DNA of 64,000 nucleotides, from positions 2,400,001-2,464,000 of the forward strand of contig NZ_CP064689.1 in NCBI RefSeq assembly GCF_023100945.1. The letters run 5' to 3'. The stretch is from Bradyrhizobium sp. 200. Its GTDB lineage: Bacteria; Pseudomonadota; Alphaproteobacteria; Rhizobiales; Xanthobacteraceae. Below the pieces are notes generated by a model. The model made no database searches. It was not told the DNA's origin and saw only the letters and a program-made list of their open reading frames with translations. The translations under genes were made by a program, and so were the position numbers. Positions 12,556 to 48,921 of the stretch are shown here, in pieces (the stretch's first letter is position 1; each line of letters begins with the position of its first letter).

Positions 12556-14652
12556 ATGAACCAGCACGCCAAGGTCGATATCCGTCACTCCACCTGTCCG
12601 CACGACTGCCCGTCGGCCTGCGCGCTCGATATCGAGGTGATCGAAGGCCGTTCGATCGGCCGGGTTCGTGGCTCCAAGGTACAGACCTACACGGCTGGCG
12701 TGGTCTGCGCGAAGGTCGCGCGTTACGCCGAGCGTATCCATCATCCCGACCGGCTACTCTACCCGATGCGCCGCACCGGCCCCAAGGGCTCCGGTCAGTT
12801 CGCCCGGATTTCCTGGGATGAAGCCCTCGACGAAATTGCCGCACGCTTCGATCAGGCCGAACGCGAATTCGGCGCTGAATCGGTCTGGCCGTATTACTAT
12901 GCCGGCACGATGGGGCTCGTCATGCGCGACGGCATCAACCGCCTTTCGCATGTGAAGAAATATTCGCGCTTCTACTCGACCATCTGTGCCAACATTGCGC
13001 GTGTCGGCTTCTCCATCGGCACCGGCAAGATCGCCGGCGTCGATCCGCGCGAGATGGGCGTTTCAGATCTCGTCGTTATCTGGGGCACCAATCCGGTGAA
13101 CACCCAGGTCAACGTGATGACGCATGCCTCGCGCGCCCGCAAGGAGCGCGGCGCCAAAATCGCGGCGATCGACATCTACAACAACGACACCATGAAGCAG
13201 GCGGATATCAAGATCCTGCTCCGCCCCGGTACCGACGGCGCCTTCGCCTGCGGCGTGATGCATGTGCTGTTTCGCGAGGGTTACGCGGACCGCGCCTATA
13301 TGGATCGCTACACCGATTGTCCTGACGAACTGGAATCGCATCTGGCGACGCGTACGCCGGAATGGGCCTCGAAAATCTCGGGCGTGCCGGTCGAGGAGAT
13401 CGAGGCGTTTGCGCGCCTTGTCGGCCAGACCAAACGGTCGTTCTTCCGCCTCGGCTACGGCTTTACCCGCAGCCGCAACGGTGCGGCGCAGATGCATGCG
13501 GCGCTTTGCATTCCGGCGGTGACAGGTGCCTGGCAATACGAAGGCGGCGGCGCGTTCTTCAATAACGCCGGGATCTGGAAGTTCAACGAATCCATCATCG
13601 AGGGCCATGACGCCATCGACCGCACCACACGCTGGCTCGACCAGTCCAAGATTGGCCGCATCCTGACCGGCGATGCCGAGGCCCTGAAGGGCGGCGGCCC
13701 CGTGAAGGCGATGCTGATCCAGAACACCAACCCCGTGACGGTGGCGCCGGAACAGGCGCTGGTGCGTCAGGGCTTTGCGCGCGAGGATCTGTTCGTTGCG
13801 GTGCATGAGCAGTTCATGACGGAGACGGCCGCCATGGCCGACATCGTGCTTCCGGCCACCATGTTCATGGAGCACGACGATCTCTATTACGGCGGCGGTC
13901 ACCAGCATATCTCGGTGGGCGCGAAGCTGATCGATCCGCCCGGCGAGTGCCGTTCCAATCACGAGGTGATGCAAGGTCTCGGCCGCCGCCTCAATGCCGT
14001 GCATCCGGGATTTGAAATGACGCCGCGCGAACTGATCGACGCGACGCTGAAGCAGAGCGGCCACGGCGATATCGAGACGCTGGAGGCGGATCTGTGGCGC
14101 GACATCCAGCCGGATTTCCGCACCTCGCATTATCTCGACGGCTTCGCGCACGCCGACAAGAAGTTCCACTTCAAGGCCGATTGGGCGAATCCGCCGTTCG
14201 GGAATCCGGGCCTGGGTCCCTGGAGCGAGATGCCCTCGCTGCCCGATCACTGGACGATCATCGAAGAGGCGGACGAGAAACATCCGTTCCGCCTCGCCAC
14301 GTCGCCGTCGCGCAGCTATCTCAACACCAGTTTCAATGAGACGCCGGGATCGCAGGCCCGCGAGGGCGCGCCGACGGTGATGATGCACCCGGAGGACGCC
14401 TCAAGCCTTTCCATCGCCGACGGCGATGCGGTGACGCTCGGCAACATGCGGGGTGAAACCACACTGACCGTGAAGGTGTTTGATGGTGTACGCCGCGGGG
14501 TTCTGATCGCCGAATCCATCCATCCGAACAAGGCTCATATCGGCGGCCGCGGCATCAACATGCTCACCGGGGCCGAAGCGGTTGCGCCCGTCGGCGGCGC
14601 AGCATTCCATGACAACAAGGTCTGGGTGAAGAAGGCCGCGCCCGCGGCCTGA
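12556..14652 (+). CDS. Molybdopterin oxidoreductase (DMSO reductase/formate dehydrogenase superfamily)
   Basis: 698-residue catalytic subunit using a bis-molybdopterin guanine dinucleotide cofactor. Near the N-terminus C14, C18, C22 and C51 form the expected [4Fe-4S] set in CPHDCPSAC and VVCAKVARY. Middle motifs include IWGTNPVNTQ and FRLGYGFTRSRNG. The C-terminal dinucleotide-binding domain starts near ATSPSRSYLNTSF, with VMMHPEDASSLSIADGDAV following. No Tat signal, Fe-S partner or membrane anchor is nearby, so it is probably a soluble single-subunit enzyme. The ATG at 12556 follows AGGA by 6 nt. The substrate is not identifiable. Confidence 0.92.
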   Translation: MNQHAKVDIRHSTCPHDCPSACALDIEVIEGRSIGRVRGSKVQTYTAGVVCAKVARYAERIHHPDRLLYPMRRTGPKGSGQFARISWDEALDEIAARFDQAEREFGAESVWPYYYAGTMGLVMRDGINRLSHVKKYSRFYSTICANIARVGFSIGTGKIAGVDPREMGVSDLVVIWGTNPVNTQVNVMTHASRARKERGAKIAAIDIYNNDTMKQADIKILLRPGTDGAFACGVMHVLFREGYADRAYMDRYTDCPDELESHLATRTPEWASKISGVPVEEIEAFARLVGQTKRSFFRLGYGFTRSRNGAAQMHAALCIPAVTGAWQYEGGGAFFNNAGIWKFNESIIEGHDAIDRTTRWLDQSKIGRILTGDAEALKGGGPVKAMLIQNTNPVTVAPEQALVRQGFAREDLFVAVHEQFMTETAAMADIVLPATMFMEHDDLYYGGGHQHISVGAKLIDPPGECRSNHEVMQGLGRRLNAVHPGFEMTPRELIDATLKQSGHGDIETLEADLWRDIQPDFRTSHYLDGFAHADKKFHFKADWANPPFGNPGLGPWSEMPSLPDHWTIIEEADEKHPFRLATSPSRSYLNTSFNETPGSQAREGAPTVMMHPEDASSLSIADGDAVTLGNMRGETTLTVKVFDGVRRGVLIAESIHPNKAHIGGRGINMLTGAEAVAPVGGAAFHDNKVWVKKAAPAA

Positions 14653-47194: not shown

Positions 47195-48430
47195 TCAGTC
47201 CGCGGGCCGTGGGGTGGGAAAAGCGACAGCGTGCCCACCATCGTGCGTGCAGGTGCCTGGCAACGTCTCTCGCACGTTGATGCGTCCCCCGCCTGGCTTG
47301 CTGACGTATAGATGGTTTTCCAATACGGATTGCATATTCTCAAACATCGAATAGAGATCGTCGCAATAGACCGACGGATTGTCGTAACCATTTTCCCTTG
47401 AAAAACGATGCGGAAGATATCCGCCGCCGCAGGCGTTCATGAACTTGCACTGTCGGCACTTCTCGCAAAGATGAATTGAAGCATCGCGCGCGGCTTTCCA
47501 GCGACGCTCGTTCCTGACGTCGTCGATGGCATGATCGAAGATGTTGAACCTGGTCTGTGTGAATCCGTCACCTGCGATCCGCAACACATCGTGAGCCTCC
47601 ACGGTGCCGTCGGTCATGATGGTGCAAAGTTCGACGGGCTTATGGCCTACGCCTTCGGTAGGCGAATTGTTGCCGAGCAGGGCAGTGATCATGTCGGAAA
47701 CGATCCGGATACTGGTTGTCGGAGCGCTGCGATTGGCCGCCAGCCACAAGTCGAACAGACCATTGTAGAACGACGCAATGGATGCCGGCTTCTCATCTGC
47801 CGTCGCATCGGGGATCATGATGTCATAGTTTGAAATCCCGCACGCAGCGAAAAACTCGACATAGTCCGCCGGCGCGTGGGCGGGATTGCAAACGGCCAAG
47901 GCAATTACGCCAATGTCGCGTGACATCAGCATGCGGGCGGCGCGTTCCACTGCAGCATGAGTACCCGTATCCTGAAACGTGCGGCGGTGAATGTCGTGAA
48001 TATGTGCCGGTCCATCAAGACTGATCGCAACTGAGATGTTGCGCGTCTCGAAGCAGTCCAGCCATTCACCATCGATCAGCACGCCGTTGGTTGTGACTGC
48101 GATGGGTATTTCGCAGCCTGTTCGCGATGAAATGTCCTCACAGGCCTCGGCAAAACGATGGAAATTCTCAACGCCCCACAGCAAGGGCTCGCCGCCGTGC
48201 AGAATAATGGGAAAATCGACAAGGGAGTATCTTGCGACATGCTGTTCGATGCGCCGCAGCAATTGCTGCAGCACGTCGGCGCTCATTAGCTTCGGCTTGT
48301 TGTAGACGGCCGCGTCGCGGAACCAATAGCAATAGGAGCAATCAATGTTGCATCTCGTGGCCACCTTCACCAGCAACTGCGCGATCGGCTGATCTTGAAA
48401 GGTGCCAGAATCTGAATCGTCAGCCGACAT
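47195..48430 (-). CDS. Radical SAM/SPASM RiPP maturase (GrrM/OscB/FxsB-like cyclophane-forming type)
   Basis: 411 residues from ATG 48430; the frame opens with TTG 48460, only 8 nt after the precursor stop. In the ATG numbering the radical SAM cluster is C27, C31 and C34 in CNIDCSYCYWF. FPIILHGGEPLLWG is the SAM-binding GGEP region. A C-terminal SPASM-like region carries VELCTIMTDGTVEAHDVL and the Cys-rich CEKCRQCKFMNACGGGY with a further SVYCDDL, for auxiliary clusters. This layout matches maturases that cross-link an aromatic ring to the residue two positions on. The gene just upstream encodes a peptide full of such Phe/Tyr-X-X units. No RRE domain, protease or exporter is evident nearby. 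Confidence 0.88.
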   Translation of the reverse strand: MSADDSDSGTFQDQPIAQLLVKVATRCNIDCSYCYWFRDAAVYNKPKLMSADVLQQLLRRIEQHVARYSLVDFPIILHGGEPLLWGVENFHRFAEACEDISSRTGCEIPIAVTTNGVLIDGEWLDCFETRNISVAISLDGPAHIHDIHRRTFQDTGTHAAVERAARMLMSRDIGVIALAVCNPAHAPADYVEFFAACGISNYDIMIPDATADEKPASIASFYNGLFDLWLAANRSAPTTSIRIVSDMITALLGNNSPTEGVGHKPVELCTIMTDGTVEAHDVLRIAGDGFTQTRFNIFDHAIDDVRNERRWKAARDASIHLCEKCRQCKFMNACGGGYLPHRFSRENGYDNPSVYCDDLYSMFENMQSVLENHLYVSKPGGGRINVRETLPGTCTHDGGHAVAFPTPRPAD

Positions 48431-48468
48431 GCCGGCACCGCGATCAACTTGATGAAGCAACGATCAGT

Positions 48469-48726
48469 CTAGTATCCCCGAATAAATCCCCCTCTGCGGA
48501 ACGCGCCCGCACCCGGAGCATATCCAGCTCTGCGAAAGGCGCCTGCACGCGCCCCTTTGGCAAATGCCCCTCGTCTGAAGGCAACCTCGGTTGCCACAGG
48601 ATCGGTACCTTGGCCGCGCAGGTCACTCAGCAGCGCGTCGATGCCTTGATGATCGCTCTGTATTGTCGCGCCCGGACCGTGCAGTTGCAGGAGGCTTGCC
48701 AATACCTTCAGCGTCGTTATCGCCAT
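48469..48726 (-). CDS. Candidate RiPP precursor with repeated Phe/Tyr-X-X units
   Basis: 85 residues. The first half (MAITTLKVLASLLQLHGPGA, then an Asp/Glu-containing stretch to about residue 45) would be the leader. The second half is Gly/Ala/Arg-rich with aromatics at F50, F55, F64, Y69, F76, F81 and Y85, giving FRR three times plus FAK, YAP and FIR, mostly spaced by Gly and Ala. GAGGAG is 7 nt before the ATG. Three-residue aromatic-X-X units are the known targets of cyclophane-forming radical SAM enzymes, one of which is the next gene. The product would be strongly basic. The core boundaries and cross-links are inference. Confidence 0.82.
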   Translation of the reverse strand: MAITTLKVLASLLQLHGPGATIQSDHQGIDALLSDLRGQGTDPVATEVAFRRGAFAKGARAGAFRRAGYAPGAGAFRRGGFIRGY

Positions 48727-48921
48727 GGTCGTGCTCCTCTTTTCGCGACGCAGCCAAGGGATCGAACGAAAGGCCGGTGTTCAACCGGTTGAGCAGAGCA
48801 GCCAGCATACCTCCTGCATTGTAGCGGAAATGTGGTGGGGTCGAGGATACGGCAAAGTGAGCTGTCGTCGTCTCCACTTCAACGACCACGTGCCTTTGCT
48901 CTCACGATCCCGCAGGTGTCG

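Follow-up and report, generated by a model that had tools for sequence, protein, structure and literature searches.

A two-gene radical SAM cassette of Bradyrhizobium with a strict F-x-[R/K] precursor, probably a minimal triceptide system

The presence in a Bradyrhizobium genome of a gene for a short, repetitive and arginine-rich peptide next to that for a radical SAM/SPASM enzyme raises the question of what this enzyme makes of the peptide, and to which of the known groups of peptide-modifying systems the pair belongs. Both genes lie on the minus strand of the window, a stretch of 64,000 nucleotides of Bradyrhizobium sp. 200 DNA. The precursor peptide gene, which consists of a leader and an F-x-[R/K] core (48469..48726, minus strand), starts with ATG and encodes 85 amino acids; a ribosome-binding site, AGGAG (48734..48738, minus strand), lies 7 nt before this ATG and is also seen in the aligned upstream regions of related loci. 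The radical SAM/SPASM maturase gene (47195..48460, minus strand) includes a possible TTG start 8 nt past the precursor stop; the conserved part begins close to the ATG at 48430, which is the probable start and yields a protein of 411 aa, and the last ~18 codons are outside the part that is conserved between genomic contexts. This arrangement of an 85-residue open reading frame with a ribosome-binding site followed by a radical SAM/SPASM gene had been described in a first-pass annotation, and it was borne out here. In all probability, the pair makes up a minimal system for a triceptide, a three-residue cyclophane RiPP, with Phe to Arg/Lys rings.

The class of the enzyme is apparent from profiles, cysteines and the nearest structures. 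The window maturase scores 301.7 bits on the YhhB profile NF041707 (cut-off 445) and 271.3 bits on the FxsB profile TIGR04269 (cut-off 370); the scores on XyeB (175 bits) and on GrrM/OscB TIGR04261 (125.7 bits, cut-off 310) are far below the cut-offs, and among the best 25 of 76 matches the maturase exceeds no curated cut-off of the cyclophane families listed. In this profile search, which the first-pass annotation had proposed, the maturase does not fall in a non-peptide SPASM clade, with YhhB and FxsB being nearest. The CxxxCxxC motif and four C-terminal cysteines make up seven cysteines that are invariant in seven aligned maturases, namely, YhhB from R. etli, Novosphingobium and Vibrio, Streptomyces FxsB/HaaB, Xenorhabdus XyeB, the maturase of locus L058 and that of the window (a separate alignment, A1, comprises 10 Bradyrhizobium maturases together with those of L058 and L059). 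The nearest solved structure, both by sequence (E 1.1e-51) and by fold (Foldseek E 3.5e-21, from an AlphaFold model of only moderate quality, pLDDT 67.5), is that of ChlB bound to the leader of its precursor; ChlB is a multiple cyclophane synthase according to the title of a work cited in PMC12636437. By these profile matches, the similarity to ChlB and the cysteines, the maturase belongs to the Xye/Grr/Fxs/Yhh supergroup, which together with an adjacent precursor carrying conserved aromatic-x-x units marks a triceptide (3-CyFE) system and supports the original reading of the locus as a RiPP system of two genes whose maturase belongs to the three-residue-cyclophane supergroup.

The leader of the window precursor begins MAITTLKVLASLLQLHGPGATIQSDHQGIDALLSDLRGQ and its core is FRRGAFAKGARAGAFRRAGYAPGAGAFRRGGFIRGY, the second half of the peptide reading FRR GA FAK GARAGA FRR AG YAP GAGA FRR GG FIR GY. 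Five units in it are conserved in the precursors of relatives: FRR (48571..48579), FAK (48556..48564), FRR (48529..48537), FRR (48493..48501) and FIR (48478..48486), all on the minus strand. The core contains 9 Arg/Lys and 0 Asp/Glu in 36 residues, and only 1 in 20,000 shuffles of it brings all Phe into F-x-[RK]. Neither NCBIfam nor Pfam gave a match to the window precursor at E<=1.

The same rule holds across the relatives. Among 40 distinct precursors taken from 58 loci (the precursor at L010 is present and lies outside this set; L025, a fragment, lacks upstream DNA), each of the 206 Phe residues from the first unit onward is in F-x-[RK], the residue at i+2 being Arg in 182 units and Lys in 24. 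Under a looser definition of the core, 206 of 211 Phe fit the rule, and the 5 exceptions lie in a variable spacer. The number of units per precursor is 5 in 34 cases and 6 in the other 6 (n=40); the acceptor of unit 2 alternates between Arg and Lys, and the middle x varies across precursors. No such rule applies to Tyr, which is followed at i+2 by Gly (43), the end of the peptide (40), Pro (33) or Arg (19, where Y precedes FR). The basic precursor of aromatic-x-x units that had been proposed is thereby supported by 206 of 206 units, in contrast to the up to six or seven rings, including one on YAP, that had been expected: YAP is not conserved in the precursors of the relatives and, therefore, five rings are predicted for the window peptide (on FRR three times, FAK and FIR).

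The codons show at which level the rule is maintained. In the units of the 40 distinct precursors, Phe is encoded by TTC 106 times and by TTT 100 times, and all six Arg and both Lys codons occur at the acceptor position; therefore, the F-x-[R/K] rule is held at the protein level. In 13 precursors of 92 aa (78 pairs), mean dN is 0.039 and mean dS is 0.433, a ratio of roughly one to ten. When the window precursor is compared singly with five others, four comparisons resemble the 92-aa group, and that with L024 gives higher dN/dS values, 0.379/1.106, in a pair whose equal length conceals indels. As a separate observation, the acceptor Arg is encoded by CGA, AGA or AGG in 136 of 182 cases, compared with 5 of 53 for the other Arg of the precursors and with a share of 13-19% at comparable Arg positions of neighbouring genes (360 crudely called genes). 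The branch L021-L023 is mostly free of this bias, which, therefore, may be a matter of inheritance, and the bias was kept out of the argument given that the precursor sequences are related.

The pair is spread through Bradyrhizobium in a patchy manner. A maturase scan of contigs from one genome per species yielded 25 loci, all from Bradyrhizobium and 74-91% identical, and a homologous precursor is encoded at all 24 loci with upstream sequence, the 25th (L025) being a fragment; the neighbouring loci that the first-pass annotation had suggested collecting do keep a precursor with aligned aromatic units. A maturase match at E<=1e-30 was found in 39 of 195 Bradyrhizobium genomes, in 34 of them at an identity of at least 76% and in five at 30-43%. 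A search with the precursor alone recovered 34 of 190 Bradyrhizobium species genomes, the same 34 that encode a close maturase, and the two genes are adjacent at the loci read. The precursor and the maturase are a real, selected pair. The window genome carries one copy, its sole other match being marginal (E 9.8e-4, 24% identity). Outside Bradyrhizobium, the samples gave distant relatives only: 6 of 397 genomes of the order at E<=1e-60 (five Bradyrhizobium and one at 41%), 6 of 149 genomes of the family (three from other genera at 40-44%) and 4 of 385 genomes of the class (three besides the window genome, at 27-32%). With the YhhB model, 5 of 398 genomes in a phylum sample gave a match at E<=1e-70, none of them above the cut-off; among 14 control genomes there was no match.

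The genomic surroundings show how small the unit is. Gene clustering around 28 loci (L064-L066 are repeats, and the gene calls are crude) revealed no exporter, protease or other conserved neighbour, the next most widespread clusters being present at 11 and 10 of the 28 loci at scattered distances and on both sides; flanking DNA sorts 42 loci (left after 17 duplicates were dropped; some flanks are shorter than 1.1 kb, and the downstream one is missing for L024) into 18 groups. The lack of a local protease or exporter noted at first is supported in that none is conserved beside the pair across the clustered loci and flank groups. In an alignment of the window DNA with 22 loci, flanks were found to be common to the window, L001 and L002, and at 11 of the 20 loci in other contexts the match starts at -108/-120 relative to the precursor ATG and extends to about +1475, close to where the maturase gene ends. 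At the other 9 it starts closer to the gene (-68 to +11) and, therefore, conservation of the upstream block is not universal; L023 additionally shows two short flank matches. The gene upstream of the cassette in the window is present in 23 of 190 Bradyrhizobium genomes. Within the stretches retrieved, the cassette is at the site in six of these (the window genome among them); it is ~6 kb away in G125. In four cassette-free relatives the window flanks meet directly, with 23-63 bp between: 48919 joins 47203 in L110 and L116 (26 bp), 48919 joins 47205 in L111 (23 bp) and 48917 joins 47242 in L118 (63 bp), so that the stretch missing at these empty sites is 47204..48918. The remaining twelve genomes have no cassette there and are more divergent. 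From the flank groups and the empty sites it follows that the unit consists of promoter, precursor and maturase and is patchy and freestanding. A transposon was considered and rejected: no terminal inverted repeats were recognised, and no target duplication was seen by eye at the boundaries of the empty sites. At the DNA level, the cassette is without a match in plasmids, where 20 records encode distant relatives of the maturase (26-34% identical), and in viral contigs no copy of the cassette was found and no relative was confirmed.

Upstream of the precursor gene lies a block conserved in most loci (48727..48846, minus strand), probably a promoter with a TATA-like box followed by the 5' UTR; it consists of ATTKCCGCTRCAAT and then GGTATA, with CCTTTCGTTCGATC in the 5' UTR. 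Among the matches listed, most of 30 loci that differ in context retain the block, which is not kept as a whole in L018-L023; homology to the window begins within it in 11 of the 20 loci of other contexts. No sigma-70 consensus was found in the block, and Rfam gave nothing at the window cassette and nothing at gathering thresholds at the cassettes of nine loci. A structured 5' UTR or thermosensor, with TGCTC/GAGCA anti-Shine-Dalgarno pairing, was also tried and dropped, as no consensus structure emerged when 28 UTRs were folded together by RNAalifold (-0.10); hairpin z-scores of 28 segments range from -2.2 to +1.0, four being at or below -1.8. Of 5 terminator-like hairpins detected, with 1.9 +/- 1.5 in shuffles, one lies in the UTR (48774-48788).

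In a tree of 36 maturases, with 14 Bradyrhizobium F-x-R rows chosen from many fetched, these 14 form one clade (support 100/99), from which L062 and L070, both distant enzymes, are excluded. Five maturases that we denote Tat-like (L058, L059, L074, L075 and L076) form a second clade (100/100) that joins the F-x-R clade at 100/99 to the exclusion of the YhhB and FxsB rows. The F-x-R clade is separate from both sets of rows with annotated YhhB; several of the outer rows are long-branched or of unusual composition, and the tree leaves the order of the deeper forks unsettled. Judged by sequence, the window maturase clade is a new group near YhhB that is neither YhhB itself nor GrrM. The maturases of the sister clade, 38-44% identical to those of the window clade, are paired with repeated aromatic-x-Arg, as in the window, in 5 of 5 precursors (by eye), but their precursors differ in an SRRx[FL]L leader motif with a hydrophobic stretch and in denser cores rich in Tyr and also Phe and Trp. 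Such leaders suggest that a cross-linked RiPP of the sister clade may be exported via the Tat pathway.

The leaders might be related across these groups. Comparison by hhalign of profiles from 14 window-type precursors, three of the five Tat-like precursors and seven YhhA-type precursors (A2, A3 and A4, respectively) places in the same register, in all three comparisons, SDHQGIDALLSDLRG of the window type, STNxALxxII of the Tat-like type and NPAIQRLRSRV of YhhA, so that SDHQGIDALLSDLRG (48613..48657, minus strand) is the proposed recognition helix. Because each comparison is weak (A2-A3, E=0.001, prob 21; A2-A4, E=0.33; A3-A4, E=0.039), this register is a lead rather than a proof. ChlA (R3A mutant chain), the substrate of ChlB, matches the profile of the seven YhhA-type precursors at E 2.9e-8, and the profile of window-type precursors gives no match to ChlA.

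Could the pair then be a plain member of the YhhA/YhhB family? YhhB is the best NCBIfam match and, like the window maturase, is a radical SAM/SPASM enzyme that has the seven invariant cysteines; the YhhA units are aromatic (Tyr, His)-x-Arg, the beta-carbon of Arg being the acceptor in YhhB, as predicted for the window; at the three annotated YhhB records a short precursor gene is located just upstream; and the leader helix is possibly shared. Nevertheless, we consider such membership very unlikely: the window maturase is 30-34% identical to the three YhhB, scores 302 against the required 445 bits and is grouped by the tree with the Tat-like clade, outside both YhhB row sets, and the window precursor has no match at E<=1 to NF041705 (cut-off 36), whereas the R. 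etli control passes both (its radical SAM part, 376 aa, scores 478.7 on NF041707 and also 480.2 on TIGR04269; its precursor scores 59.9 bits, against 57.9 for L069 and 32.4, below the cut-off, for L071). The window type also has a Phe donor, an Arg/Lys acceptor and 5 or 6 spaced units in place of the compact YDRMHHRHNRS core of YhhA, and a single-domain maturase as opposed to the ~710 aa of the R. etli and Novosphingobium YhhB and the additional yhhC of the Vibrio locus. FxsB/HaaB (TIGR04269) is the second-best profile, and the FxsB-like MscB offers an example of a Phe donor, but the TIGR04269 cut-off is not reached and the Streptomyces haa locus differs in its genes for a TPR protein and an N-acetyltransferase. 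XyeA/XyeB and GrrA/GrrM-OscB are likewise three-residue cyclophane formers, and XncB can take Arg as acceptor; the Xenorhabdus xye locus adds genes for HlyD and a peptidase-ABC exporter, none of which is conserved at window-type loci. The affiliation with GrrM/OscB that was initially proposed is barely credible and appears largely refuted by the profile scores, 126 against 310 bits for the maturase, with YhhB and FxsB nearer; the window precursor does not match GrrA/OscA1 TIGR04260 (cut-off 31), nor does that of L022, and the acceptors named for OscB, Asn and Asp (PMC11002830), are not those at i+2 here. What speaks for it are the Gly-rich repeats and the 19.1 bits (E 0.0015), under the cut-off, of the L006 precursor on TIGR04260.

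A different outcome of the reaction, with only some units modified or another bond formed (at another carbon, or by hydroxylation or desaturation), is unlikely as well. The clade stands apart from the named YhhB, FxsB/HaaB and XyeB rows, unit 2 varies between Arg and Lys and the x position varies too, and the ring chemistry is argued by analogy; against this, F and R/K are equally strict in all units, and YhhB, XncB, OscB and MscB, as described in PMC11002830, all make i to i+2 aryl-beta-carbon bonds. Finally, the core could be an unmodified RG-rich tail that binds nucleic acids, the adjacent enzyme acting on another substrate. The RG-rich composition would fit, and the precursor profile aligns, non-significantly (E 8.1), with the Gly/Arg-rich tail of the PDB chain mS86; the joint presence of the two genes in the same 34 genomes, the fixed spacing and the analogous enzyme-precursor pairs of the sister clade make this explanation highly improbable.

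Under the preferred reading, a triceptide system, the leader would dock the precursor on the maturase, probably via SDHQGIDALLSDLRG, the radical SAM centre would abstract a beta-hydrogen of the Arg or Lys at i+2, and the beta-carbon would then be joined to the aromatic ring of Phe at i. Repeated over the five units, FRR, FAK, FRR, FRR and FIR, and costing 2 H (2.016 Da) per ring, the reaction would lower the mass by up to ~10 Da and produce rings spaced by Gly/Ala. Leader removal and product release would fall to general cell enzymes because none are encoded nearby. Among the links of PMC11002830 considered here, Phe as donor has only Asn or Ser as partner (the MscB example is a Phe-Ser link). 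Measured against that list, which is possibly incomplete for the field, rings joining Phe to Arg or Lys would be new. An Arg acceptor as such, which had been thought unusual, is not surprising, because YhhB is reported to link Tyr-Arg and His-Arg, and XncB Trp-Arg (PMC11002830). The system is ordinary in kind and new in detail, that is, in the F-x-[Arg/Lys] rule, the five or six units and the minimal cassette. In the open literature, we found no report of a Bradyrhizobium radical SAM cyclophane, an earlier mention in the 2022 triceptide landscape paper being possible; the literature found on radical SAM RiPPs of Bradyrhizobium, as far as its content was accessible, concerns thioamidated RiPPs.

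The product would be a rigid polycation, which suggests an antimicrobial or envelope-active peptide and would most likely act on anionic surfaces or nucleic acids, perhaps those of competitors. With no exporter and no immunity genes, an intracellular role is possible. In a bolder and rather doubtful version, a 1.7-kb unit that lacks genes for a transporter, a protease or immunity and moves from one Bradyrhizobium locus to another would make an RG-rich five-ring product working inside the cell as a nucleic-acid- or ribosome-binding peptide, not an exported antibiotic; if true, such a cross-linked RG-type peptide would be a new role for triceptides, whose bioactivities were stated to be not yet elucidated in a 2025 paper (PMC12257519). 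The pair provides a compact two-gene triceptide example that occurs in 34 of the 190 species sampled from a cultivable genus, and the clean empty sites allow a simple comparison of strains with and without the cassette. Phe-to-Arg/Lys rings would extend the reactions listed in PMC11002830 and offer a strongly basic multi-ring scaffold.

Several further observations concern related or nearby loci. The Tat-like precursors are located at L058 2805-3191(-), L059 6284-6847(+), L074 516-1352(+), L075 2685-3134(-) and L076 105-530(+); on TIGR01409 (cut-off 16.7), L076 scores 16.1 and L059 14.6, both slightly under, and the other three have no match. At L007, a fluoride riboswitch (RF01734, 53.9 bits) occupies 14147-14224(-), ~3 kb from the cassette. 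The YhhA-type loci L071 and L068 (G899:C28:14805-19338), L063 and L069 have the cores YNRTYNRHNR, YNRTYHRHNR or FDRTHHRHNR and adjoin open reading frames that, by eye, resemble 2OG oxygenases or HExxH proteins; G899 encodes two maturases ~2.3 kb apart.
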